Shown here: positions 9,438 through 24,616 of the stretch, piece after piece
Layout: each line of letters starts with the position of its first letter
Position numbering within the stretch: the first letter of the stretch is position 1
Source: Nakamurella flavida
GTDB taxonomy: Bacteria; Actinomycetota; Actinomycetes; Mycobacteriales; Nakamurellaceae
Reading direction: 5' to 3'
Assembly (NCBI RefSeq): GCF_030811475.1
Contig: NZ_JAUSQV010000001.1
Location: forward strand, 3,111,001-3,175,000
DNA length: 64,000 nt
The notes under the pieces: model-generated
Seen by the model: only the letters and a program-made list of their open reading frames with translations
Database searches by the model: none
Told to the model about the DNA's origin: nothing
Program-made: the position numbers and the translations under genes

Positions 9438-9986
9438 GTGCGCACCGAGGAGGAGGCGGCGTTCGCCGAGTACATGACCGCCCGTCGCGATGCGGTGCGA
9501 CGCACGGCCTATCTGCTGTGCGGGGAGTGGCACAAGGCCGACGACCTCACCCAGACGGCGTTCGTGAAGCTGTACGGCGCCTGGGGTCGGATCCGGGATC
9601 GCGGCGCCCTGGACGCCTACGTCCGGTCGTGCCTGGTCCGGGCGACGATCGACGAGTCACGCCGACCCTGGCGGCGGGAGCGTGCGGTGGAGTTTCTGCC
9701 CGAACCGCATCCGTCGGCCGGCGGGTCCGCCGATCTGGCCGACTTCGCCGGTGGCCTGGCCGATCGGGACGCCGTCCGGGAGGCGCTGCGGCAGGTGCCG
9801 CCCGGGCAGCGCACCGTGCTGGTGCTCCGCTACTACGAGGGATTGGACGTCAAGGCCGTGGCGCAGGCGCTGGGGTGTTCGGACGGGACGGTCAAGTCGC
9901 AGACCTCCCGCGGGCTGGCCGCGCTGAAGGCCGCGCTGGCCGTGACGGGGACGACCCCCGAGCGCCGCGAGGGGGAGGGGCGATGA
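9438..9986 (+). CDS. ECF sigma factor, SigE-like family
   Basis: 182 residues. The N-terminus MRTEEEAAFAEYMTARRDAVRRTAYLL is characteristic of the actinobacterial SigE-like ECF group. Region 2 carries ADDLTQTAFVKLYGAWGRI; region 4 carries LPPGQRTVL-type sequence and the recognition helix CSDGTVKSQTSRGLAAL. The GTG at 9438 has AGGAGG six bases upstream. Its stop overlaps the next gene's ATG (ATGA), the normal arrangement for a sigma factor and its membrane-bound antagonist. Confidence 0.85.
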   Translation: MRTEEEAAFAEYMTARRDAVRRTAYLLCGEWHKADDLTQTAFVKLYGAWGRIRDRGALDAYVRSCLVRATIDESRRPWRRERAVEFLPEPHPSAGGSADLADFAGGLADRDAVREALRQVPPGQRTVLVLRYYEGLDVKAVAQALGCSDGTVKSQTSRGLAALKAALAVTGTTPERREGEGR

Positions 9987-10897
9987 CCGGGCCCGACCCC
10001 ACGCCCCCGCCGGGTGCCGCGGACGAGGAGGCGCTGCGGCAGCTGTTCACCCACCTCGCCGACGATCCCGACGCACCGCCCAGCTCGGTCAGCGCCCTGC
10101 GGGTCCGCGCTGCGGCCGGTCGGCGCCGGGACGCCCGCCGCCGCACGCTCCGCACCACCCTGCTGGCCGCCGCCGGGGTCGCCGTCGTCGCGTTGCTGGT
10201 GCCGATCGCCCTGCGGGCCACCGGTGGGGCCACCACCAGCACCGCCTCGTCCGACCGGACGCTGGTCGAGGCCGCGAGCTCCGCGGCCGGATCGGCCGCG
10301 GCGGCCGCTCCCGGCCAGGCCCAGCTGCCCGACGAGGGGGGGGCGCGGGCGTTGTCCCTGGGGGAGTCGTCGGCCGGCAGCAGCTCGGCCCCGGCGGGCG
10401 CGAACGGGAGCGCGGCGGCGTCGTCGGCGGCATCGTCGGCCGCGTCGTCGGCTGCCACAGGGTCCGCTGCGGGTTCGGACCGCTGCGCGTCGACCTCGCT
10501 CGATCCCGCCGCCGCCGCGGCGGTGGTCGACGCACTCCCGGGCCGCGGGGGCGTGGTGCAGGAGGTCGCGCCGGCCGTCCTGCCGTGCACCCGGGGCGGG
10601 GTGTCCGGGACGGCGTTCGACGTCGTCGCCGGCGCCCAGGCCGGGTCGGTGCAGGTCGCGCTGCTCGGCTCCGCCCCCGCGGAGTGCGCCGCGGGGTGTC
10701 CCGCGGTGGACGGATCCGGTGCGGTGCTGCTCCGGGACGACCCCACCGGGACGGAGGTCGCCGTGCCCGGACCGCAGGGCTGGGTGCTGCTGCAGCAGGA
10801 ACTGACCAACCTGTCCGGCCTGGACCCGCTGACCCAGCTGCCGTTCACCGCCGCGGAGCTGGCGGCCGCGGGTCGCGCCGTGCTCGCCGCCGGGTGA
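9983..10897 (+). CDS. Membrane protein, probable anti-sigma partner of the upstream ECF factor
   Basis: 304 residues. The N-terminal 50 residues are hydrophilic and cytoplasmic-like, with a basic RRRDARRRTLRTT stretch before one membrane helix (about 56-75). An Ala/Ser low-complexity linker (about 85-165) follows, then a folded external domain with paired cysteines. No named family or zinc-binding anti-sigma motif is visible. The assignment rests on translational coupling to the sigma gene (ATGA overlap) and topology. The low-complexity stretch could instead mark a cell-wall-spanning linker. Confidence 0.6.
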   Translation: MTGPDPTPPPGAADEEALRQLFTHLADDPDAPPSSVSALRVRAAAGRRRDARRRTLRTTLLAAAGVAVVALLVPIALRATGGATTSTASSDRTLVEAASSAAGSAAAAAPGQAQLPDEGGARALSLGESSAGSSSAPAGANGSAAASSAASSAASSAATGSAAGSDRCASTSLDPAAAAAVVDALPGRGGVVQEVAPAVLPCTRGGVSGTAFDVVAGAQAGSVQVALLGSAPAECAAGCPAVDGSGAVLLRDDPTGTEVAVPGPQGWVLLQQELTNLSGLDPLTQLPFTAAELAAAGRAVLAAG

Positions 10898-10906
10898 CGC
10901 CGGGCG

Positions 10907-10989
10907 GTTGCTCGGCCGGGGGCGCACTGCTCGCGCGTGGGTGCGGTGCTCACGACCGGTCGCGAGCACCGCGTCCCGCGCCGAGCAAC
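10907..10989. repeat. Large nested inverted repeat between genes
   Basis: Outer arms GTTGCTCGGC (10907-10916) and GCCGAGCAAC (10980-10989) enclose a second hairpin: GCGGTGCTC (10943-10951) with GAGCACCGC (10964-10972), whose centre is the 10-bp palindrome CGACCGGTCG (10953-10962). As RNA it would fold into a long two-part stem just after the stop at 10897, and so may be a terminator. The 80-bp size is larger than the other terminators here. Confidence 0.6.
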
Positions 10990-11050
10990 GAGCCCCCTGC
11001 CCACCGGACTTGCCCGTCGAACCCTGGGGCTGGTCGGCCATACTGCGGCC

Positions 11051-11518
11051 ATGTCCTCCGCCGATGTGCCCACACCGGGTCCGGACGAGCACCGGCGGGC
11101 GGCGGTGAGCGCCAACCACCACGCCTGGACGCTCCTGACGGTGCCGTCGAGATCGGCCGACGAGGACGAGGACATGGTGCGCAGCGCCTACGCCGCCGCC
11201 CACCACTGGCAGCACGCGCGCGGGGCCGGCCCCGAGAACGAGGCCCGGGCCGCCTATCTCGTGGCCAAGGTCCTGCTGCTGACCGGTCACCCGGAGGGGG
11301 CGCTGCGCTCGGCGGACCGGTCGCTGCGGGCCTGCGAGGAGCATGGGCTGGCCGATTTCGACCTGGCGTACGCGCACGAGATCCGGGCCCGCGCCCTGGC
11401 CGCACTGGACCGGGAGGACGAAGCGGCGTGGGAGTGGGTGGCCGCGGTGGCCGTCCCCATCGCCGACCCCGACGACCGCGCCCTGGTCGAGGCGGACTTC
11501 GCGGACCGGCCCGTCTGA
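11051..11518 (+). CDS. Conserved-type hypothetical protein, helical repeat-like
   Basis: 155 residues, mostly alpha-helical in composition, with two Ala-rich helix pairs (AAHHWQHARGAGPENEARAA and the HPEGALRSADRSLRACEEHG region) that look like tetratricopeptide units. There is no membrane segment and no catalytic motif. The ATG at 11051 is chosen because the open frame upstream lies in the inverted repeat and has no protein-like sequence. It is convergent with the esterase, 16 bp apart. Function unknown. Confidence 0.6.
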   Translation: MSSADVPTPGPDEHRRAAVSANHHAWTLLTVPSRSADEDEDMVRSAYAAAHHWQHARGAGPENEARAAYLVAKVLLLTGHPEGALRSADRSLRACEEHGLADFDLAYAHEIRARALAALDREDEAAWEWVAAVAVPIADPDDRALVEADFADRPV

Positions 11519-11534
11519 TCCGGGCGGGACGCGG

Positions 11535-12473
11535 TCACGGGAGCAGCGCACCCCGCAGCGCATCGGCCTGCGACCGCCAGAAGGTCCGCGAGACAGCGGC
11601 TCTCGGCAGCAGGGCGTCGAAACCGTGGAAGGCTCCCGGGACCACGTCCAGGGCGCAGGGCACGTCGGCGTCCCGCAGTCGCCGGGCGTAGGCGACGTCC
11701 TCGTCGTGGAACAGGTCGAGCGAACCGACGCCGATCCAGGCCGGGGGCAGGCCGGTGAGGTCCTCGCGCCGGGCCGGGACGGAGTACGTCGGCACCTCCG
11801 GTGAGCCGGGTTCCCGTCCGAGATAGGACGTCCAGCCGAACCGGTTGCTCCGCGGCGTCCACGCCCGGACGTGCGGGACGCGGTGGCCGGGCCGGGTGAC
11901 GGTGCGGTCGTCCAGCATCGGGTAGACGAGCAGCTGGAACGCCACCGCCGGCTCGCCGTCGCGTCGTGTGTCATGCATGCGATGGGCGAGGGCGGCGGCC
12001 AACCCACCACCGGCGCTCGCCCCGCCGACGGCGACCCGGGACGCTTCGATCCCGAGCTCGTCGGCGCGATCCAGGAGGCCCCGCAGCCCGGCGAACACGT
12101 CGTCGACGGCCGCGGGGGCCGGGTGTTCCGGGGCCAGGCGATAGCGGACCGAGGCCACCGCGATGCCCAGTTCGCGGACGAAGCCCAGGCTGCTGCGCTC
12201 GTCCTGCTCCGGCCGGCCGATGATCAGCCCACCGCCGTGGATCCACAGCAGCAGTGGCACCGGGCCGCTCGCGGCGGCGGGCCGGAGCAGGCGGAGCGAC
12301 ACCTCGGGCCCGCCGTCGTACCCGGGGACGGTGATCTCCCGGGCCCGGACGTCGGGGCCCGGGTCGGGGGCGGGCCGCTCGGGAAGGTGCCGGAGGAGCC
12401 GCACCACCGCCGGGCCGAAGGACACCGGGGGGAGCAACCGGGCGATGCGCAGATCGGGGTGAAAGGCGTTCAC
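11535..12473 (-). CDS. Alpha/beta hydrolase, hormone-sensitive-lipase (acetyl esterase) type
   Basis: 312 residues. The oxyanion motif HGGG lies in LLLWIHGGGLIIG near residue 84, the nucleophile serine in VAVGGASAGGG, and the acid/histidine pair in the C-terminal LDLFHDEDVAYARRL and PGAFHGFD segments. These are the hallmarks of the HSL (family IV) esterases that cleave short acyl esters. GTG 12473 follows AGGGCGG. It may be read from the same strand as the haloperoxidase-like gene, but the hairpin at 12508-12543 separates them. Confidence 0.85.
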   Translation of the reverse strand: MNAFHPDLRIARLLPPVSFGPAVVRLLRHLPERPAPDPGPDVRAREITVPGYDGGPEVSLRLLRPAAASGPVPLLLWIHGGGLIIGRPEQDERSSLGFVRELGIAVASVRYRLAPEHPAPAAVDDVFAGLRGLLDRADELGIEASRVAVGGASAGGGLAAALAHRMHDTRRDGEPAVAFQLLVYPMLDDRTVTRPGHRVPHVRAWTPRSNRFGWTSYLGREPGSPEVPTYSVPARREDLTGLPPAWIGVGSLDLFHDEDVAYARRLRDADVPCALDVVPGAFHGFDALLPRAAVSRTFWRSQADALRGALLP

Positions 12474-12507
12474 CCGCCCTGCCTACCCGACGAGCGGCCC
12501 GGACGCA

Positions 12508-12543
12508 GCCGGGCCCGGCGCGCAGTTGCGCACCGGGCCCGGC
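12508..12543 (-). terminator. Terminator hairpin downstream of the haloperoxidase-like gene
   Basis: 11-bp perfect arms GCCGGGCCCGG (12508-12518) and CCGGGCCCGGC (12533-12543), with an inner GCGCA/TGCGC stem. It lies 15 bp past the stop at 12559. Confidence 0.7.
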
Positions 12544-12558
12544 GGGAATGCGGGGGAC

Positions 12559-13431
12559 TCAGCCGGCCAGGAACTTCACCAGCGCCGCGTTGAACTCCTC
12601 GGCGTGGGTGGTGTTGATGCCGTGCGGGCCGCCCTCGATGAGGACCAGCTCGCTGTTCGCGATCAGTTCGTGCGACCGCTTGCCGCTGACCTCGAACGGC
12701 ACCACCTGATCGGCGTCGCCGTGGATGACCAGGGTGGGCACATCGACCTTGGCCACGTCGCCGCGGAAGTCGGTGCGGCCGAAGGCGGCGATGCAGTCCA
12801 GGGTGCCCTTGGGCGAGGCGACCTCCGCCAGGGACAGGGCGTAGTCGTGGGTCGGCCCGCTGACGAGCTCGCGCACGCCGGTCGCGGTCACCAGCTTGGA
12901 CAGGAAGCCCTCGCCGCCCGGGGTGAAGAAGTTGCTGACGAACCCGTCGAGGAACTTCGGCCGGTCGGTCTTCACGCCGGTCTCGAAGCCGCCGATGGTG
13001 GCGTCGTCCAGGCCGCCGTCCGGGTTGTCGTCGGACTGGTAGAGGTACGGCGGGACCGCGGCGGCGAGCACGGCCTTGCTGACCCGGCTGCTGCCGTAGG
13101 TACCGATGTAGCGGACGACCTCGCCGCCACCCATCGAGAAGCCGACCAGGGCGACCTCGGTGAGATCCAGCTCGGTGAGCAGGGTGTTCAGGTCCGCGGC
13201 GAACGTGTCGTAGTCGTACCCGTTCCACGGCTGCGTGGACTGGCCGAAACCGCGACGGTCGTAGGTGATGACCCGGTGACCGGCCTCGACGAGGGCGGGG
13301 ACCTGGGCCTCCCAGGACCGGCCGGACAGCGGCCAGCCGTGGATGAGGACGACCGGCTTGCCGGTGCCGTAGTCCTCGTAGTGCAACTCGATCGGCGATC
13401 CGGCCTCGGTGCCGACGGTGACCTTGGGCAT
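12559..13431 (-). CDS. Alpha/beta hydrolase, cofactor-free chloroperoxidase/esterase type
   Basis: 290 residues. IHGWPLSGRSWE near residue 30 supplies the oxyanion hole, GFSMGGGE holds the nucleophile Ser near 100, VIHGDADQVVPF holds the acid, and GGPHG the histidine. The CIAAFGRTDFRGD segment is typical of the non-heme haloperoxidase group, which acts as perhydrolases/esterases. ATG 13431 matches the family N-terminus (MPKVTVGTEAG); the frame stays open far upstream only as antisense of the antiporter gene. It diverges from the antiporter with 204 bp between starts. Confidence 0.88.
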   Translation of the reverse strand: MPKVTVGTEAGSPIELHYEDYGTGKPVVLIHGWPLSGRSWEAQVPALVEAGHRVITYDRRGFGQSTQPWNGYDYDTFAADLNTLLTELDLTEVALVGFSMGGGEVVRYIGTYGSSRVSKAVLAAAVPPYLYQSDDNPDGGLDDATIGGFETGVKTDRPKFLDGFVSNFFTPGGEGFLSKLVTATGVRELVSGPTHDYALSLAEVASPKGTLDCIAAFGRTDFRGDVAKVDVPTLVIHGDADQVVPFEVSGKRSHELIANSELVLIEGGPHGINTTHAEEFNAALVKFLAG

Positions 13432-13635
13432 GGTGTCTGCGCTCCTGACGTCGTGGGGACCTCCGCGCGGATCGTTCCCGCTGGATCGGACCCGCTGGGG
13501 CGGTGTCCGGCATGTCGTATTCGGAACCAACCGTGCTGCGGTGCGGTCCATTCCCGGTGCCGGGACGGCTGTCCCATCGGGTGAGATTGCCGCGGATGGT
13601 CGGGTGGGCACGACCCTGCGGGGCACTATCAGGCC

Positions 13636-15423
13636 ATGGCCGCAATCCTCCCGACCATCGGACTCATCGTCGGGGTCCTGCTGATCACCTCGGTGGCGAC
13701 CCGGTTCTCCCTCCCCGCGCCGATCCTGCTGGTGCTGATCGGCCTGGGCGTCTCGTTCATCCCCGGCATCCCCGGCTACGAGGTCTCCCCCGAGATCGTG
13801 CTGTACGTGCTGCTGCCGCCACTGCTCTACGGGGCGGCCTACGAGTCGTCCGCGGTGGCCATCCGCCGGCTGATCCGCCCGATCGTGCAGTTGGCCGTGG
13901 TGCTGGTCCTGCTCACCGCGTTCACCGTCGCCTTCGTGGTGACGGCGATCGTGCCGGGCGTGCCGTTCGCCGCCGCGCTCGCCCTGGGGGCCATCGTCGC
14001 CCCGCCGGACGCGGTGGCCGCGGTCGCGGTGGCCCGGAAGGTCGGCCTGCCCCGCCGGCTGCTCACCGTGCTCGAGGGCGAGTCGCTGTTCAACGACGCG
14101 ACCTCCCTGGTCACCCTCAAGGTGGCCATCGCGGCCATCGGGGCGACCTCGGTGGCGTGGGCGCCGGCGCTCGGCGAGTTCGCCTGGGCCTCGGGCGGTG
14201 GCGTGATCATCGGGGTGCTGCTGGGTCTGTTCCTCTCGTTCGTCCGTCGGCACGCCGGGTCACCGCTGACCATCACCGCGCTCTCCCTGGTCACCCCGTT
14301 CGCGGCCTACCTGATCGGTGAGGAGGCCCACGCCTCCGGGGTTCTCGTCGTCGTGGTGACGGGGCTCGTGCTCGGGTACCGGTCGCCCACGGAGGTGGCG
14401 GCGTCGGTCCGGCTGACCGAGACGGCCACCTGGGCGGCGTTGCGCTTCGTCCTGGAGGGCGGGGTGTTCGCGCTCATCGGACTGGAGCTCCGCGGCATCA
14501 TCCAGGGGCTGGACACCAGCACCGACAACGTCTTCCTGGCCATCGGCGCGGTGCTGCTGACGGTCATCGTGAGCCGGCCGATCTGGGTCGGGCTGATCCA
14601 CGCCGTCAGTCGGCTCACCGGGAAGGAGAACGAGCACGTCGGCCGCAAGGGGGTGGCGGCGGTCTCCTGGGCCGGGATGCGCGGCGTGGTGTCGCTGGCT
14701 GCCGCGCAGACGCTCCCGCTGGACACCCCGTTCCGTTCCCTGCTGCTGGTCTGCACCATCACCGTCATCCTGGGCACCCTGGTGCTCCAGGGGCTGAGCC
14801 TGCCGTGGGTGATCCGGCGGCTGGGCATCGTCGAGGACACCCGGGCCGACGATCTCGCCGAACGCACCACAGCGCTGACCAAGGTCAGCGAGGAGATCAA
14901 CGCCCGGGTGGACGCGCTCTGCTCCGACGGCAAGCTGTCCGAGCGGCAGGGCGAGCTGATGCGCAAGTGGGCCTCGCTGCGCGACTGGCGGAACTGGGAG
15001 GACGACGACGCGTCCCGCGACTTCGCCCGCCGGCTGTCCGTGCTGTCGGACTGGCGGCGCACCCTGCTGGGCATCGAGCGTGAGGTCATCGTGGGTCTGC
15101 GCAACAGCGGTGAGCTCTCCGAGAACGTCCTGAACGACATGCAGCACGACCTGGACCTGGAGGAGGCCCTGCTGGAACGGCGCAGCCAGGCGGTCGACGG
15201 GCACCTCGGCGAGCTCCCCGCCCAGGAGGACCCGGAGGGGTCCGGCCGTCCCGAGCTCGACCAGGAGCCGTCCCCGGACGGGGAGAGCGGTGACCGACGG
15301 GACGCCGATGTGGACGAGGACGCCGCCGTCGACGACGCGGACGTCAGTGCCCTGCTGATGGACGAGCAGCGTGCCGAGGGCACCGTCATCGGACAGCGCT
15401 CCGGGCGGACCGGCCGGGACTGA
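13636..15423 (+). CDS. CPA1-family Na+/H+ antiporter (NhaP-like)
   Basis: 595 residues: about 12 membrane helices over residues 1-410, then a long charged cytoplasmic tail. The ion-binding region reads ALGAIVAPPDAVAAVAVARKVG followed by VLEGESLFNDATSL, the CPA1 signature with the essential acidic residues. WAGMRGVVSLAAAQTLP is the conserved late helix. The tail (about 415-595) has coiled-coil-like helices and an acidic, disordered end, which may serve regulation by pH or partners. It exchanges external protons for internal sodium or potassium. Confidence 0.92.
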   Translation: MAAILPTIGLIVGVLLITSVATRFSLPAPILLVLIGLGVSFIPGIPGYEVSPEIVLYVLLPPLLYGAAYESSAVAIRRLIRPIVQLAVVLVLLTAFTVAFVVTAIVPGVPFAAALALGAIVAPPDAVAAVAVARKVGLPRRLLTVLEGESLFNDATSLVTLKVAIAAIGATSVAWAPALGEFAWASGGGVIIGVLLGLFLSFVRRHAGSPLTITALSLVTPFAAYLIGEEAHASGVLVVVVTGLVLGYRSPTEVAASVRLTETATWAALRFVLEGGVFALIGLELRGIIQGLDTSTDNVFLAIGAVLLTVIVSRPIWVGLIHAVSRLTGKENEHVGRKGVAAVSWAGMRGVVSLAAAQTLPLDTPFRSLLLVCTITVILGTLVLQGLSLPWVIRRLGIVEDTRADDLAERTTALTKVSEEINARVDALCSDGKLSERQGELMRKWASLRDWRNWEDDDASRDFARRLSVLSDWRRTLLGIEREVIVGLRNSGELSENVLNDMQHDLDLEEALLERRSQAVDGHLGELPAQEDPEGSGRPELDQEPSPDGESGDRRDADVDEDAAVDDADVSALLMDEQRAEGTVIGQRSGRTGRD

Positions 15424-15445
15424 CCGACCCGGCCCCGCCCCCCGG

Positions 15446-17627
<2,182 letters not shown>

Positions 17628-19055
17628 TCAGCCGGCGAGATCCAGTTGCGCGTCGACCACGGCCAGCACCGTCCAGCTCGCGCCGGTGCTGTCGGTCATC
17701 GCCCAGGCGGGCAGCACGAGCACGGTGCCGTCGGCCCGGTACTCGGTCGTCAGGGCGGGAGTGGCTGCGGTGAGGGTGATCTCGGTGGTGGACCAGGGCA
17801 GCGGGGCGCCGGGGGTCGGCGGGGTGACGGGAGTCGTCGCCGCTCCGTCCGAAGCGGGAGACCGGACCGTGTCGGTGGCGACCAGGGGCATGGCCCCACC
17901 GCCGGCGGCGCCGAACCGGGTGTCGTTCATCCGGGCGACGGCCTGGGCCGGGCTGATCAGGTCGTAGTCGCCCAGGCTCGCCAGCGGTGCGAGCGGTCCG
18001 GAGAAGTACGCGAGGCGATCCCCGACGAAGCTGAACGACCAGGCGTACCCGAGGCTCACCCCGTCGAGCTGCGGGGACGCGGTCACCGATCGGTAGCCGC
18101 CACTGACCTGGTCGTCCGGCGAGGTCAGGGTGAAGGCGGCCGGGTCGAGACCGATGGTGGTCAGCAGCGCGGTACTGCGGTCCACGGCGTCCTGGCCGGT
18201 GATCGGCGCGGGGCACGTTCCGGTGGGCGGCGTGCCGACCGACGGGGTGCTGCCCGCCGGCGCCTCGGCCGCCGGGGCCGGCAGCGGCTCCACCGCGACG
18301 GAGCAGTCACCGCCGACGGTCGGATCGGTGTAGCTGAACGACGCGGTGCCGTCCTGTGCGACGCTCACCGAGGGCGCCGTCCCGTCGTTCGGCCCGACGG
18401 TGAACGCGCCGTACTCGTCCACCGCGGATCCCGGGACACCCAGCGCCCCAGCGATTCTCTCGGCGGTCGCCGCCGCGCCGGTCCCCGCGGCGTCGTAGAC
18501 CCAGGCGCTCCCGGTGCTGCCTTCCGCGGGGAGCCCGCCGTCGACGAAGTGCAGCCGTCCGCCGTAGCCGATCAACCGACTGTCCTGGCCGGCGCCTGCG
18601 GACATCGCACCCGCCTCGGACGGCAGCCCGGGCGCGGCGGACGCGCTCTGCTGGCCTCCGGTGGCGGCCGAGGGCAGGGCGGATGCGGACTCCGGGACGG
18701 CCGCGTTCGACCCGGCCGCGGCGACGGGTGTGTCCCGCCCGGCCGTCTGCTGCCCGACCACGAAGGCGCCACCACCGACCACGGCCACCGCGGCCGCCAC
18801 CGCCGCGAGCCGCTGCCAGCGGCGGGCCGGTGCGCGCAGCGGGGTGACCCCGGGCGCGGTGTCCCGGGGCAGAGGGGTGGGTACCGGGCCCGGTTCCAGG
18901 GTCGGTCCAGCGGCGATCCGCCGGTCGACCCTGCGCCGCAGGGCGGCGAGATCGGGGGCGGCGGGACCGACCGGGTCGGCCGCGCGGAGCCGGTCGAAGG
19001 CGTCGGCCGACTGCGTGTCGGGGGACTGCGGGTCGGGTGTCCGGTCGTCGGTCAC
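17628..19055 (-). CDS. Single-pass membrane protein, probable anti-sigma partner
   Basis: 475 residues. The N-terminal 85 residues are cytoplasmic and charged (LAALRRRVDRRIAAG), one membrane helix follows (about 85-105), then a Ser/Ala/Gly-rich linker and a large external domain (about 150-475) with aromatic beta-rich sequence (YAWSFSFVGDRLAYFSGP). It lies 76 bp behind an ECF sigma gene on the same strand; that and the topology are the basis for the anti-sigma idea. No zinc motif is seen. GTG 19055 has an AGGAG site. The external domain family is not recognised. Confidence 0.65.
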   Translation of the reverse strand: MTDDRTPDPQSPDTQSADAFDRLRAADPVGPAAPDLAALRRRVDRRIAAGPTLEPGPVPTPLPRDTAPGVTPLRAPARRWQRLAAVAAAVAVVGGGAFVVGQQTAGRDTPVAAAGSNAAVPESASALPSAATGGQQSASAAPGLPSEAGAMSAGAGQDSRLIGYGGRLHFVDGGLPAEGSTGSAWVYDAAGTGAAATAERIAGALGVPGSAVDEYGAFTVGPNDGTAPSVSVAQDGTASFSYTDPTVGGDCSVAVEPLPAPAAEAPAGSTPSVGTPPTGTCPAPITGQDAVDRSTALLTTIGLDPAAFTLTSPDDQVSGGYRSVTASPQLDGVSLGYAWSFSFVGDRLAYFSGPLAPLASLGDYDLISPAQAVARMNDTRFGAAGGGAMPLVATDTVRSPASDGAATTPVTPPTPGAPLPWSTTEITLTAATPALTTEYRADGTVLVLPAWAMTDSTGASWTVLAVVDAQLDLAG

Positions 19056-19131
19056 GGGGGCTCCTGTCGTCGGGTGCGGATCAGGTGGAGGGTCGGGAAG
19101 AGCGCGGGTGGGGCGGGGCGGCGGGTGCGGA

Positions 19132-19629
19132 TCAGCCCGCGGCGTCGACGCGGTCCCAGGCCTGCTGCAGGCGGGTCCGGGCGCGGGACAGGGCGGCGGC
19201 GGCCCCGCCCCGGGAGATCTCCAGGACGGCGGCCAGGTCGTCGCCGGACAACCCGTCCCAGGCGGACAGCAGCAGGATGCGCTGGTCCCGGGGGGACAGG
19301 TCGGCCATCACCCGGCGGAGGTCGTCGCCGCCGTCGGACCACTGCGGGGTCTCCGGATCGCCGTCGTCGGGGACGACGGCCAGCGGTGTCGGGCGGGCCT
19401 TGCGGTGATGGTTGGCCACGACGAACCCGGCGGTGCGGTAGAGCCACGGGAGCTCGGCGCCGGCCGGGATGTCCGCCCGTCGCCGCCAGGCCACGGTCAG
19501 GACATCGGCGGTGAGATCCTCGACGTCGCTGCGGTCGGCCCGACGGGCGACGAAGCGGTGCACGGCCACGGCATGGGCGTCGAACAGCCGGGTGAACCAC
19601 TGCTCGTCACGGGCGGTCACCTCGTCCAC
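19132..19629 (-). CDS. ECF RNA polymerase sigma factor
   Basis: About 165 residues. Region 2 has FTRLFDAHAVAVHRFVARR, DVEDLTADVLTVAWRR and the LPWLYRTAGFVVANHHRK DNA-melting segment; region 4 has LSPRDQRILLLSAWDGLSGDDLA and a final helix ISRGGAAAALSRARTRL. The start is either GTG 19629 or GTG 19620. This is the third ECF gene within 13 kb and is followed by its probable membrane partner. Confidence 0.82.
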   Translation of the reverse strand: MDEVTARDEQWFTRLFDAHAVAVHRFVARRADRSDVEDLTADVLTVAWRRRADIPAGAELPWLYRTAGFVVANHHRKARPTPLAVVPDDGDPETPQWSDGGDDLRRVMADLSPRDQRILLLSAWDGLSGDDLAAVLEISRGGAAAALSRARTRLQQAWDRVDAAG

Positions 19630-19810
19630 CCCTGTACGCCGTCCACCTCTGCACCGACCATCACAGCGCACCCCGTTCGTCGTCCTGCCGTCACCACCAC
19701 CCTGTCTGTGTGGTGGACCGGGCCGGTGTTGCAGGGCTGCGCGATGTTCCGTGGTGTGCCGGGTGGCGCCGAGGGGCGCTGTCGGGTTCCGTCGGCTCGG
19801 CCGGACGGGC

Positions 19811-20266
19811 TCAGCGGGTGTCCCACGCTCCCGGGAGTGCCGCGAACGAGGTGACCGGCCCGGGGAGTTCGCCGTCGCGGATCTGCTGGAGGGTGACGGT
19901 GTCGAGCACGCTGCGCAGGGCGGCCCGGGCGGCGATCCACACCTCCGTCAGGTGTTCCGCGCAGCCGTCGTAGGCGATGTCGTTGGGGCGCTGCCCGCGC
20001 ACGTTGACCAGCGGACCGTCGATGGCCCGCATGATCTCGCCGACGGTGATCAGTTCCGGGCCGCGGGCCAGGGAGAACCCGCCGCCGTTGCCGCGGTGGC
20101 TGTCCACCAGGCCGTTGCGCCGCATGGTGGCCATCACGGTCTCCAGGAACTTGCGCGGGAGGCCGTGCGCGGTCGCGATGGTCTGGACGCTGACCTGACC
20201 CGGCCAGGCGGCGGCGATGTGCAGCATCGCGTGGACGGCGTAGTCGGAGCGGGCGGTGACGTGCAT
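19811..20266 (-). CDS. Rrf2-family transcriptional regulator
   Basis: 151 residues. N-terminal winged helix MHVTARSDYAVHAMLHIAAA, then VQTIATAHGLPRKFLETVMATMRRNGLVDSHRGNGGGFSLAR, a near-complete Rrf2 signature. The Fe-S-binding three-cysteine cluster of IscR/NsrR is absent: only one Cys (YDGCAEH) remains in that loop. It therefore probably does not sense through a [2Fe-2S] cluster. ATG 20266 fits the family start. Its target is not evident from neighbours. Confidence 0.88.
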   Translation of the reverse strand: MHVTARSDYAVHAMLHIAAAWPGQVSVQTIATAHGLPRKFLETVMATMRRNGLVDSHRGNGGGFSLARGPELITVGEIMRAIDGPLVNVRGQRPNDIAYDGCAEHLTEVWIAARAALRSVLDTVTLQQIRDGELPGPVTSFAALPGAWDTR

Positions 20267-20378
20267 GTCAGGGGTCCACGGTCCAGCCACTCGGAGGGGC
20301 GCAGGGCGACGCGGCTCCGGATCGGAACCGCCGCCAGGGTAGCGCGGGGCGGTCGGGTCGGCGTGCGGTCGGCACCGG

Positions 20379-20750
20379 TCAGCCGGTGACCTCGGCGTCC
20401 GCCTCGTCCTGCAACAGCGGAGCCCGGTCCGAGAGCCGTTGCGGCAGGGGGTTCCTGGGCTCGCGGTCGTGGCTGTCCGGGCCGCCCTGGTGGGTGAGGG
20501 CGACCACCACGCTGTCCCCGGCGAACCGGCCCGACCCGCCGACCGGCTCCTGCGTACTGACCACCCAGCGACCGGAGGACCGGAGCTCGGTCAACGGCGG
20601 GTGGGGGCCGGCCAGGGCGAGGCGGAAGTGGTGGTCGGCGGCCTGCCGGAGGGCCGCGGAGACGAGCATCCCGGACAGGTCGGGGACGGTGATCGCGTCC
20701 GGCGGTGTCCCGGCCGGCTCGAACCGCGTGGACTGTCGACCTCGACCCAT
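20379..20750 (-). CDS. Stand-alone PASTA-like domain protein
   Basis: 123 residues with an excellent GGAGGT site. Residues 20-88 resemble one PASTA unit: VPDLSGMLVSAALRQAADHHFRL at the start and VVSTQEPVGGSGRFAGDSVVVAL at the end. PASTA domains normally sit outside the cell on PknB-type kinases or penicillin-binding proteins and recognise peptidoglycan. This protein has no signal peptide or membrane helix and no kinase domain. The C-terminus is polar. Function unknown; a cytosolic or leaderless role is unusual. Confidence 0.65.
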   Translation of the reverse strand: MGRGRQSTRFEPAGTPPDAITVPDLSGMLVSAALRQAADHHFRLALAGPHPPLTELRSSGRWVVSTQEPVGGSGRFAGDSVVVALTHQGGPDSHDREPRNPLPQRLSDRAPLLQDEADAEVTG

Positions 20751-20850
20751 CGGGACCTCCCGGAACGTATGGCTGATGGTCGCAGGCTAGGCCGATCCCC
20801 GCTGTCCCGGAACGGGCTTCTCGGTGGGCGAACAGCGGCGGCCGGTTCGC

Positions 20851-21300
20851 TCAGTTGTTCTCGATGACCTGCGTCTCGCAGCCGGACGCGTCGCACGAGG
20901 AGTTGCTGACCGAGCTGTGGCCACCGCCGGTGTTCCGGGAGACGTTGACGTGGTCACCGTTCCCGTCCACGAACTGCTGGTCGGTCGCGCCGGCCGGGAA
21001 CTGCATGTCCATGAACCCGCTCGGGTCCGAGGTGACGGTGCCGGTGGTGGACGACGGGGTGAAGTCGCTGTCGGCGGAAAGGGGCGCGCCGGGGGTCGGG
21101 GTCGGCATGCCGATCGGCGCCCCGGTCGTCACGACGACGTTCGGCGTGCCGGTGACCGCCGGACCGGCGTCGGCGCCGCCCGGGCCGCAGGCGGTGAGCG
21201 CGACCAGGACGGCACCCAGGCCGGCGGTGCTCAGCGCGGTCCGGGCCACCGACCAGCGGCGGGGGGCGGGGGTGGGCAGGACGGACTGAGTCTGGATCAT
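20851..21300 (-). CDS. Small lipoprotein of unknown function
   Basis: 149 residues. Signal peptide 1-38 with basic RRWSVARTALSTAGL and a lipobox ending VALTAC, so it should be lipid-anchored. The mature part is short, rich in Thr/Pro/Ser/Gly, with an aspartate/asparagine-rich segment (QQFVDGNGDHVNVSR) and two Cys near the end (CDASGC) that could form a disulfide. No family is recognised. Confidence 0.65.
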   Translation of the reverse strand: MIQTQSVLPTPAPRRWSVARTALSTAGLGAVLVALTACGPGGADAGPAVTGTPNVVVTTGAPIGMPTPTPGAPLSADSDFTPSSTTGTVTSDPSGFMDMQFPAGATDQQFVDGNGDHVNVSRNTGGGHSSVSNSSCDASGCETQVIENN

Positions 21301-21526
21301 CGGAAGTCCCTGGGGGGCGGGGGCCGGCTCGTCGCGGTCCCGGTGGGCGTCCGGGCGGATCACCCGGTGCTGGTTCCCAGGTTAGGAATCGCGCTGTCGG
21401 GTCGGCGTCTGCCGATCGGCCGCATCCGGCGCGCCCGGCGTAGGCCGCAGGAGGTACCCCGAAGGAGAACGACAGCGGGGCGGGCACCCCGGTGGTGTGT
21501 CGTCCGGCAGCAACGGCGCCACCGCG

Positions 21527-21553
21527 GGGTCCGACCGCGGTCGGTGCGGACCC
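21527..21553 (-). terminator. Terminator hairpin downstream of the membrane-anchor gene
   Basis: Arms GGGTCCGACCG and CGGT-g-CGGACCC (one bulged base) around a CGGT tetraloop, 22 bp past the stop at 21575. The rest of the 21301-21574 gap shows no gene. Confidence 0.6.
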
Positions 21554-21574
21554 GGTGGCACCGGCGTGCCGGGG

Positions 21575-22048
21575 TCAGCGGACCTTGTCGATCGTCCGAT
21601 TGCCGATCGAGATGTCCACGGTGGCCGGCAGGTTCGGCTGGTCCATGGCCTGCCGGACGTGGCCGATGGTCTCGTCCTCGATGCGTCGGCGCACGGCGGT
21701 CGGGTCGGCGTCCCGGTTGAGCGTCACGTCGACCACGAGCTCGGGGGCGGTCGGATCGCCGATGAGCCGGGCGGCGGCGCTCTGCACCCCGGTGAACGAC
21801 TCGATCTCGCGCTCGGTCGCCGCGGTCAGCGCGCCGGCGGCCAGGGTGGTGGTGCCGTGCGCCCGGTCACCCGGGAGCACGACGTCCCCGGACCGGTCCG
21901 TGGAGAAGAGCACGGCGATCAACCAGCGCACCACCAGGAGCAGGACGACCAGGCTGACCACCCCCACCACGGGCCAGAACCAGGTGCGGTTGTCGTCGAC
22001 GAACGCGCCGACCAGGTCGTCGTCAACGTGACCGTGGACGACGTGCAC
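21575..22048 (-). CDS. Asp23/AmaP-type membrane protein (alkaline-shock anchor-like)
   Basis: About 157 residues: one strong membrane helix (WFWPVVGVVSLVVLLLVVRWLIAVLF, about 24-49) followed by a cytosolic domain with repeated charged segments and ending DQPNLPATVDISIGNRTIDKVR. The layout resembles membrane anchors of Asp23/alkaline-shock proteins (AmaP-like, DUF6286-type). Only one in-frame GTG (22048) leaves room before the divergent gene at 22083, so it is taken as the start, but no ribosome site is clear. Function is probably envelope-stress related by family only. Confidence 0.55.
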   Translation of the reverse strand: MHVVHGHVDDDLVGAFVDDNRTWFWPVVGVVSLVVLLLVVRWLIAVLFSTDRSGDVVLPGDRAHGTTTLAAGALTAATEREIESFTGVQSAAARLIGDPTAPELVVDVTLNRDADPTAVRRRIEDETIGHVRQAMDQPNLPATVDISIGNRTIDKVR

Positions 22049-22082
22049 GTCGAACCGGACGCCCCGACCCGCAGGCGCTGAC

Positions 22083-22439
22083 GTGCTGATCCGCCCGACC
22101 GAGCTGGACGCGCTGGTGAGCGGCGACATCGACCTGGCGTTCCGGCGCTGGGACCGACCGCGGCTGCGGGTGGGCACCCGGATGCGGACGAAGGTCGGTC
22201 TGGTCGAGGTGACGGAGGTGGAAACCGTCCCGCTGCGGTCGATCACCGCGCGGGACGCCCACCGGGCCGGCGCGGCGACCCGCGCCGACCTGCTGGGCCG
22301 GCTCGCCGACCACCCCGAGCGCCCGGTCTTCCGCATCGGCCTGCGCTTCGCGGGCGCCGACCCGCGGATCGCGTTGCGGCAGGACGCGGCGCTGACCGAG
22401 GACGAACGCTCGACCCTGCTCGCCCGGCTGGACCGGTAG
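22083..22439 (+). CDS. ASCH (PUA-like) domain protein, apparently truncated by in-frame amber
   Basis: 118 residues from GTG 22083 to TAG 22437-22439. It has the ASCH/PUA start MLIRPTELDALVSGDIDLAF and RVGTRMRTKVGLVEVTEVE; these domains bind RNA or modified bases. In relatives I recall, this domain runs straight into a winged helix beginning FGPWT. Here the same frame continues past the stop with TFGAWTRPTLRLIAEHPAV, so the stop splits what is normally one protein. Either it is a recent nonsense mutation, a readthrough stop, or a sequencing error. Confidence 0.75.
   Translation: MLIRPTELDALVSGDIDLAFRRWDRPRLRVGTRMRTKVGLVEVTEVETVPLRSITARDAHRAGAATRADLLGRLADHPERPVFRIGLRFAGADPRIALRQDAALTEDERSTLLARLDR
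22437..22439 (+). other. In-frame amber codon interrupting an ASCH-winged-helix-GNAT reading frame
   Basis: TAG at 22437-22439 is the only stop in frame 3 between 22083 and 23105. Codons on both sides encode continuous family-like protein (LARLDR before; DTTSTFGAWTRPTLRLIAEH after). There is no in-frame ATG or GTG between 22440 and 22565 to restart the winged helix, so its first helices would not be made by independent initiation. Confidence 0.7.
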
Positions 22440-22565
22440 GACACCACCTCCACCTTCGGGGCCTGGACCCGGCCCACGCTGCGGCTCATCGCCGAGCACC
22501 CCGCCGTCCGCGCCCCCGACCTCGCCGCCCGACTCGGCCGCCCCACGGCGGACTTCAAGCGCGAC

Positions 22566-23105
22566 GTGCGGCGGCTCAAGGAGCTGGGCCTGACGCAGTC
22601 GCTGGACGTCGGCTATCTGCTGGCGCCCCGGGGTCGCGCGCTGCTCGGCCTGCCCGCCGTGTCCACACCGGGCCCCGAGATCGAGATCGCCGTCTCTGAC
22701 GGTGATGTCGACGTCGCCGAGCTCACCGCGCTGTACGACGCCGTCGGCTGGACCGCCTACACCCGCGACCCCGCCGGTCTCCTCGCCGCGGTCACGGGAT
22801 CGTCCCGGGTCGTGCTGGCGCGCCGGGGTGCGGCCCTCGTGGGGTTGGCCCGGGTGATCACCGACGGGGCCAGCATCTGCTACCTGCAGGACCTGCTCGT
22901 GCATCCCGACGACCAGCGGACCGGCATCGGCGGTCGGCTGGTCCGGGCCGTCCTCGAGCCCTACGCGCACGTCCGGCAGACCGTCCTGCTCACCGACGAC
23001 GATCCCGCGGTGGGGATGTTCTACCGCGCACTGGGTTTCGCCGAGACGCGCGAGCACGGCGACGGCACCCTGCGGGCGTTCGTCCGGGTGCTGCCGCCCT
23101 CCTGA
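22566..23105 (+). CDS. GNAT N-acetyltransferase with partial winged-helix N-terminus
   Basis: The open frame resumes directly after the amber at 22437. Sequence 22440-22640 encodes a winged helix (APDLAARLGRPTADFKRDV, KELGLTQSLDVGYLLAPRG). From about 22680 a GNAT domain begins (ALYDAVGWTAYTRDPAG), with the acetyl-CoA loop VHPDDQRTGIGGRLV and FYRALGFAE at the end. The first start after the amber is GTG 22566, inside the winged helix; GTG 22659 would give a clean 148-aa GNAT. The acetyltransferase itself looks intact; the target is unknown. Confidence 0.7.
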   Translation: MRRLKELGLTQSLDVGYLLAPRGRALLGLPAVSTPGPEIEIAVSDGDVDVAELTALYDAVGWTAYTRDPAGLLAAVTGSSRVVLARRGAALVGLARVITDGASICYLQDLLVHPDDQRTGIGGRLVRAVLEPYAHVRQTVLLTDDDPAVGMFYRALGFAETREHGDGTLRAFVRVLPPS

Positions 23106-23140
23106 TCCGACACCGTCGGGCGCGGGGGAGAATGGGGTCC

Positions 23141-24616
23141 GTGACGACACCCGCCCCGCAGAGTCCCGCCGCCGCCCGCCCCACCCGACCGGCCAAGCCG
23201 GTCCTGGAGGACGTCCTCGCGCAGCGGTACGCCTCCCCGGAGATGGTGGCGATCTGGGCGCCGGAGAACAAGATCGTCGCCGAGCGACGGCTGTGGCTGG
23301 CCGTGCTGCGGGCCCAGGGCCGGGCCGGGCTGACGGTGGACCCGCAGGTGCTGGCCGACTACGAGGCCGTGATCGAGCAGGTCGACCTCGGTTCCATTGC
23401 CGCGCGCGAGCGGGTCACCAAGCACGACGTCAAGGCGCGCATCGAGGAGTTCAACGCGCTCGCCGGGCACGAGCAGATCCACAAGGGCATGACCAGCCGG
23501 GATCTCACCGAGAACATCGAGCAGATGCAGATCCGGGCCTCGCTCACCCTGCTGCGGGGCCGGTCGCTCGCGGTGCTCGACCGGCTCGCCGCGCGGGCCG
23601 CGCAGTACAGGGACACCGTGATGGCCGGCCGGTCGCACAACGTCCCCGCGCAGGCCACCACCCTGGGCAAGCGGTTCGCCTCGGCGGCCGACGAGATGCT
23701 GCAGGCCCACCACCGGCTCACCGATCTGCTGGCCCGGTACCCGATGCGGGGCGTCAAGGGTCCGGTCGGCACGGCACAGGACATGGACGACCTGCTCGGT
23801 TCCGCCGCGGCCGTGGCCACCCTGGAGGCCGAGGTCGTCGCCGAGCTGGGTGGCGGCACCGTGCTCACCTCCGTCGGTCAGATCTACCCGCGGTCGCTCG
23901 ACCACGACGTGCTCTCCGCGCTGGTCCAGCTGGCCGCGGCGCCGGCCTCGCTGTCCACCACGCTGCGGCTGATGGCCGGGGCGGAGCTGGCCACCGAGGG
24001 CTTCCAGCCCGGGCAGGTCGGCTCGTCGGCCATGCCGCACAAGATGAACGCCCGGTCCTGCGAACGGGTCTGCGGGCTGGCCGTCGTCCTGCGCGGCTAC
24101 GCCTCGATGGCCGCCGAGATGGCCGGGGCGCAGTGGAACGAGGGTGACGTCTTCTGCTCGGTGATCCGCCGGGTCGCCCTCCCCGACGCGTTCTTCGCCC
24201 TCGACGGGTTGATCGAGACGTTCCTGACGATCCTGCGCGACCTCGGTGCCTACCCGGCCGTCATCGCGCGGGAGCTGGAGCGGTACCTGCCGTTCCTGGC
24301 CACCACCAAGGTGCTGATGGCCGCGGTGCGCTCCGGGGTGGGCCGGGAGGTGGCGCACGAGGCGATCAAGGAGCACGCGGTCGCGGTGGCCCTGGAGATG
24401 CGGGAGCAGGGCCGCACCGACAACGACCTGGTCGACCGGTTGGCGGGCGATGCCCGGCTCCCGCTGGACCGGGACGCCCTCGTCGCGCTGCTGGCCGACC
24501 CGCTGTCGTTCACCGGTCTGGCCGGCAGCCAGGTCGACGCGGTGGTCGCGCAGATCTCCGAGCTCACCGCACAGGACCCGGCGGCGGCCGCCTACCGGCC
24601 CGGCGCCATCCTCTGA
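23141..24616 (+). CDS. purB: Adenylosuccinate lyase
   Basis: About 491 residues. Cleaves SAICAR and adenylosuccinate in purine synthesis. The fumarase/aspartase signature GSSAMPHKMNARSCERV is present near residue 300, with the catalytic-His regions GMTSRDLTEN and AGRSHNVPAQATT. GTG 23141 is preferred because GGGGGAG ends ten bases upstream; ATG 23132, nine bases earlier, sits too close to that site but is possible. purC follows after a 246-bp gap that holds an iron-box-like site. Confidence 0.95.
   Translation: MTTPAPQSPAAARPTRPAKPVLEDVLAQRYASPEMVAIWAPENKIVAERRLWLAVLRAQGRAGLTVDPQVLADYEAVIEQVDLGSIAARERVTKHDVKARIEEFNALAGHEQIHKGMTSRDLTENIEQMQIRASLTLLRGRSLAVLDRLAARAAQYRDTVMAGRSHNVPAQATTLGKRFASAADEMLQAHHRLTDLLARYPMRGVKGPVGTAQDMDDLLGSAAAVATLEAEVVAELGGGTVLTSVGQIYPRSLDHDVLSALVQLAAAPASLSTTLRLMAGAELATEGFQPGQVGSSAMPHKMNARSCERVCGLAVVLRGYASMAAEMAGAQWNEGDVFCSVIRRVALPDAFFALDGLIETFLTILRDLGAYPAVIARELERYLPFLATTKVLMAAVRSGVGREVAHEAIKEHAVAVALEMREQGRTDNDLVDRLAGDARLPLDRDALVALLADPLSFTGLAGSQVDAVVAQISELTAQDPAAAAYRPGAIL

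Follow-up and report, generated by a model that had tools for sequence, protein, structure and literature searches.

ASCH domains are suspected of reading modified bases, and fusions of an XRE-type helix-turn-helix (HTH) to an ASCH domain have been described in (PIN)-GNAT-EVE operons (PMC11037411, PMC7641849). The locus analyzed here resembles these operons in that a GNAT and an ASCH-HTH protein lie near each other; it differs in that the operons carry an XRE-family HTH and a GNAT fused to EVE (PMC7641849). A Pfam search of the two products of the locus returned no EVE or PIN match. The portions of the literature that we could consult on ASCH with winged helix, helix-turn-helix, GNAT, or EVE yielded no ASCH-winged-helix-GNAT protein. 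The locus is like actinobacterial ASCH-winged-helix proteins (L029, L002, L028, L100, and L101) in start region, domain order, and the conserved residues on both sides of an in-frame amber codon. Unlike the intact proteins, in which a hydrophobic residue closes the joining helix, it has TAG there; its frame enters a GNAT domain, whereas theirs end or add a helix-hairpin-helix-like tail. Standalone GNATs are alike in the GNAT domain, from which the copy studied here differs by the winged helix ahead of it in frame. Escherichia coli YqfB, an N4-acetylcytidine amidohydrolase (9kyf, 9kyh), has the ASCH fold in common with the first 89 residues of the homologue L101; the two are 20% identical, the match does not extend to the winged helix, and the likeness is one of fold.

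The window, a 64,000-nucleotide stretch of the Nakamurella flavida genome, contains a frame at positions 22083 to 23105 that translates into 118 residues, TAG at 22437 to 22439, a further 221 residues, and TGA at 23103 to 23105. The TAG is the sole stop inside the frame that runs from GTG 22083 to this TGA, just as a first-pass annotation made by eye had claimed. We consider it probable that the locus is an ASCH-winged-helix gene recently broken by a nonsense change and lying beside an independent GNAT gene. The features that bear on this reading are as follows.

9987 to 23131: region containing an alpha/beta hydrolase, a Na/H exchanger, an FAD monooxygenase, a second sigma factor, and an Rrf2 regulator
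21575 to 22027, minus strand: AmaP-like gene fragment missing its N-terminal segment, with a homology edge 56 bases from the ASCH start
22083 to 22439, plus strand: ASCH part of the ASCH-winged-helix gene, 118 amino acids, with a GTG start and a premature TAG end
22437 to 22439, plus strand: in-frame TAG, in a column that holds Leu 37 times, Met 18 times, Trp 12 times, Phe twice, and a gap twice among 71 relatives
22440 to 22658, plus strand: winged-helix part, with its first in-frame ATG, GTG, or TTG only at 22566
22659 to 23105, plus strand: GNAT acetyltransferase domain (PF13508), with a candidate GTG start of its own at 22659 and a TGA end

A long open frame is by itself little evidence, because such frames abound in this DNA: across the six frames of the whole window, 153 stop-to-stop runs out of 1489 reach at least 221 codons, and these 153 take up 51% of the six-frame codons. 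The frame is more than chance because homology flanks the TAG on both sides within it. GC content by codon position is coding-like in the ASCH, winged-helix, and GNAT parts alike, with values of 0.78/0.58/0.96 and 0.77/0.50/0.92 around the winged helix/GNAT junction. Past the TAG, the earliest in-frame ATG, GTG, or TTG is GTG 22566, at codon 43 and within the winged helix. The annotation was thus correct that no ATG or GTG lies between the stop and mid-helix and that initiation within the winged helix, which is possible at this codon, would lose the first helices. It had not listed the second in-frame candidate past the TAG, GTG 22659, directly ahead of the GNAT domain.

We assessed the ASCH part by sequence and by the predicted structure of an intact homologue. 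Its start lines up with those of L100, L101, L103, and L002, and it is 65% identical to L029, 65% to L002, and 54% to L028. The Pfam ASCH profile matches it at an E value of 0.049 and 14.8 bits, below the 21.2-bit cut-off, and attains an E value of 0.01 in 2 of 30 family members; an NCBIfam search with the ASCH part gave no match. Searched by sequence against solved structures, the family profile found weak matches only (best E value, 0.046). A model of L101 (mean pLDDT, 80.5; pTM, 0.48; built on an alignment of 5 rows) superposes residues 1 to 89 on E. coli YqfB with a Z score of 12.2 and an rmsd of 2.3 over 88 aligned residues, a fold match obtained on the intact homologue and not on the window protein alone. 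Foldseek with the same model returned nothing at an E value of 0.001 or below, its best match (1.6e-3) again being YqfB. The ASCH label, weak by sequence, is thus supported by the fold of L101. Residues from about 105 to 196 of the model resemble the winged helices of Rio2 (Z score, 10.8), MarR, CggR, and CzrA, with Z scores of about 9 to 11, a range often seen with this fold. The amber column corresponds to residue 117 of L101, close to the end of the helix at residues 104 to 120, so that in this model a product ending there would keep the whole ASCH domain and would lack the winged-helix core.

The family was delineated mostly through the winged helix, for which Pfam gives only weak matches between the ASCH and GNAT parts. 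The set of 71 distinct relatives consists of a first 35 and 36 added winged-helix matches, with L101 and L095 merged as a duplicate; A1 comprises 29 of the first 35 homologues and the window. ASCH and the winged helix share one uninterrupted frame in all of the first 35 and in 34 of the 36 added relatives. Each of the first 35 ends past the winged helix, in some cases after an additional tail. The first-pass expectation that the winged helix normally continues the ASCH protein is confirmed in 69 of 71 relatives, the other two being broken by a frame change. In this pair, L239 (G363) and L273 (G096), ASCH remains are found in another frame than the winged helix, which marks them as broken copies or sequencing errors; if broken, family copies fail elsewhere too and the gene looks dispensable. 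The ASCH part as a query gave matches in 21 of 61 genomes, that of the window included. Outside its own genome, 21 matches divide into 17 whose frame runs on without interruption into the winged helix, 3 with ASCH only, and 1 that is spurious (L022, an off-frame match that we discarded as an ASCH relative).

The amber column itself is occupied by Leu in 23, Met in 6, Trp in 5, and Phe in 1 of the first 35 relatives, and by Leu in 14, Met in 12, Trp in 7, Phe in 1, and a gap in 2 of the 36 added ones; the gaps belong to L268 and L272, fragments whose alignment is uncertain at this point. None of the 71 has a stop in this column, which argues that the stop is derived and is no normal gene end. 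The next column is Asp in all of the first 35 relatives and in the window. Of 51 family-conserved columns across the ASCH and winged-helix parts (conserved in 30 or more of the first 35 homologues), the window keeps 48, and the 3 missed ones all fall after the TAG, in the winged-helix part. We also considered that the gene might normally be split here and rejected this, because none of the examined homologues ends at the amber column as an ASCH protein; the ASCH-only L015, L016, and L021 are distant and end earlier, by eye roughly 30 residues before it. In family members, the ASCH barrel and the winged helix follow each other in one open frame that either stops shortly past the winged helix or continues into a tail other than GNAT. 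At this locus, TAG 22437 separates the two domains and the frame runs into GNAT, so that by its sequence the locus is a broken, not an intact, member of the ASCH-winged-helix family.

Several observations concern the range of this family. A C-terminal helix-hairpin-helix-like tail (...HGVGP...) occurs in L028, L088, L092, L095, L100, L101, L238, L240, L241, L245, and L246 and is perhaps a further nucleic-acid-binding part; HHH_5 is detected in 2 of 30 family members. Winged-helix matches that continue stop-free beyond the winged helix (G264, G116, G086, and G074, all within the 36 added relatives) do so into such a tail and are negative for the GNAT profile. In G036 and some other genomes, matches cross a stop past the winged helix, where the frames terminate. 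An ASCH-winged-helix homologue in the alphaproteobacterium Methylopila jiangsuensis (L103), 62% identical to the winged helix of the window, suggests transfer. The plasmid collection held one distant match, on an Embleya plasmid, at 64.8% over query positions 39 to 555, a span that includes the amber site. For the species itself, one genome was covered.

The GNAT part stands on firmer sequence grounds, matching PF13508 at an E value of 1.2e-10 and 42 bits against a cut-off of 27. GNAT acetyltransferases have a Q/RxxGxG/A loop motif, present here as QRTGIG, and the window keeps 45 of the 47 columns that are conserved in 8 or more of 9 standalone GNAT relatives. The standalone proteins L078, L079, L098, L099, L024, and L025 are 53 to 67% identical over the domain, and the nearest GNAT relatives are separate frames with no winged helix ahead of them. 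Standalone GNATs have their starts at about the position of GTG 22659: L081 reads MVEIEIVEPTG... from its GTG, and the window reads STPGPEIEIAVSDG after GTG 22659, the start codons of relatives such as L081 being a choice made in this analysis. Shine-Dalgarno pairing at GTG 22659 is almost nil (-1.1 kcal/mol).

Queries spanning the winged helix and GNAT together found the two at different places in the 61 genomes and likewise in 17 genomes of the genus and 397 of the order, three samples that overlap. None of the GNAT matches in G285, G137, G155, G150, G243, G333, and G138 starts before query residue 78 or extends into the winged helix, and no winged helix was seen by eye upstream of eight GNATs chosen for matches that start early or span widely (L102, L104, L105, L107, L112, L117, L125, and L128). 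Conversely, the GNAT profile matched none of the frames of the 71 winged-helix relatives, and no GNAT flanked any of the first 35 family members (loci of 2 to 6 kb) or lay within 12 to 15 kb around nine family loci. The intact three-domain form that the first-pass annotation had envisaged is therefore unsupported, with GNAT in none of 71 relatives' frames and the nearest GNATs encoded as separate genes.

Under the explanation that we favor, a member of the common actinobacterial ASCH-winged-helix family, built of an ASCH barrel, a joining helix, and a MarR-like DNA-binding winged helix, would have acquired a single nonsense substitution close to where the joining helix ends. Ribosomes that start at GTG 22083 would then make a 118-residue product that consists of ASCH alone and lacks the DNA-binding part. 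The GNAT would be a separate acetyltransferase gene that lies in frame with the broken gene, continuing its frame because the junction has no stop codon, and, if expressed, would most likely start at GTG 22659. We infer that the family acts as a modified-base or nucleotide dependent regulator, a function that this copy has presumably lost through a mutation that is probably recent. Some of the evidence counts against a broken gene, since the winged helix and GNAT look unharmed, as readthrough also predicts. When winged-helix distance is fitted on ASCH distance across 35 mutually nonindependent homologues, the window has a mean residual of +0.008 (rank 23 of 36), which amounts to no measurable excess divergence of the winged helix after the TAG. 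Either the change happened recently or the part past the TAG is still being translated; downstream decay, sought as proof of a pseudogene, was not found, a result that neither proves nor excludes readthrough.

A different history, in which the amber codon disrupted a true ASCH-winged-helix-GNAT fusion that had first formed in this lineage, would account for the lack of a stop between winged helix and GNAT and for the coding-like codon-position GC on both sides of the junction. Against it stand the lack of GNAT in the frames of all winged-helix relatives, a junction GTG placed about where standalone GNATs start, and the abundance of open frames of such length in this DNA, and we regard it as unlikely. 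We hold it to be slightly less likely still that the TAG stems from faulty assembly or base calling in an intact ASCH-winged-helix part. The lack of excess divergence past the TAG fits such an error; however, the genome is a single contig with a completeness of 100 and a contamination of 0.41, and the three-domain form would have no relatives even then. Consensus substitution errors are also rarer than indel errors, which counts against this possibility.

Programmed or leaky readthrough of the amber codon would yield a little ASCH-winged-helix-GNAT protein besides the short ASCH product, in keeping with the conservation of winged helix and GNAT past the TAG. In-frame stops in bacterial genes that keep a dN/dS under 1 have been reported to be widespread, although the authors work from the assumption that functional recoding does not account for the vast majority of them (PMC7918605). 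A programmed stop would be conserved among relatives with coding sequence beyond it, whereas the amber column has a stop in none of the 71, and no fused relative occurs among them. We rejected an amber suppressor tRNA, as none of the 45 tRNA genes found (RF00005 at an E value of 0.001, typed by ARAGORN) has a CUA anticodon that could read UAG. A readthrough-stimulating RNA structure was likewise rejected, since the sequence past the TAG folds like its shuffles (z score, -0.62), 48 of 200 of which fold at least as well. Readthrough is accordingly improbable. Its lineage-specific version, in which a low-abundance protein would join an ASCH sensor of nucleotides or bases, a MarR-like DNA-binding winged helix, and an acetyltransferase while the free ASCH domain would be the main product, is the most improbable of all, and if true it would make the stop codon a switch between a regulator-enzyme and a bare ASCH sensor.

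In the surroundings of the locus, the distance from the ECF sigma gene (9438 to 9986) to purB (23132 to 24616) is about 13.1 kb here and 1.0 to 3.9 kb in six relatives, which suggests that this interval is a site of gene gain and loss; the approximately 13 kb between the two genes is missing at this place in the same number of relatives. Next to the ASCH start lies the fragment of a gene whose product we take to be AmaP-like. The genome matches only residues 42 to 190 of the 191-amino-acid homologue in G012, and a hydrophobic N-terminal segment is present in the homologues from G012, G008, G005, and G002. Pfam assigns the fragment DUF7937 only, below cut-off, and no Asp23 match was found across the genome. 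As AmaP-like homology ends 56 bases from it, the ASCH start is close to a break, and the original promoter of the ASCH-winged-helix gene may have been lost. No promoter-like site was found by a scan that has little power in GC-rich actinobacteria, and together with the weak Shine-Dalgarno pairing at GTG 22659 this leaves separate expression of the GNAT a candidate.

Alignment with homologues, which the first-pass annotation had proposed as a check, bears out a sense codon at the amber position in relatives and found no fused ASCH-HTH-GNAT. Among the three options that it had offered, a recent nonsense change fits best, and readthrough is without positive evidence. Our analysis thus corrects the by-eye view of a three-domain ASCH-HTH-GNAT protein, which is unsupported by any relative examined. 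The locus is most probably an ordinary gene that was broken not long ago, and its analysis outlines an actinobacterial ASCH-winged-helix family that is barely detected by Pfam and that is broken in at least two other sampled genomes.
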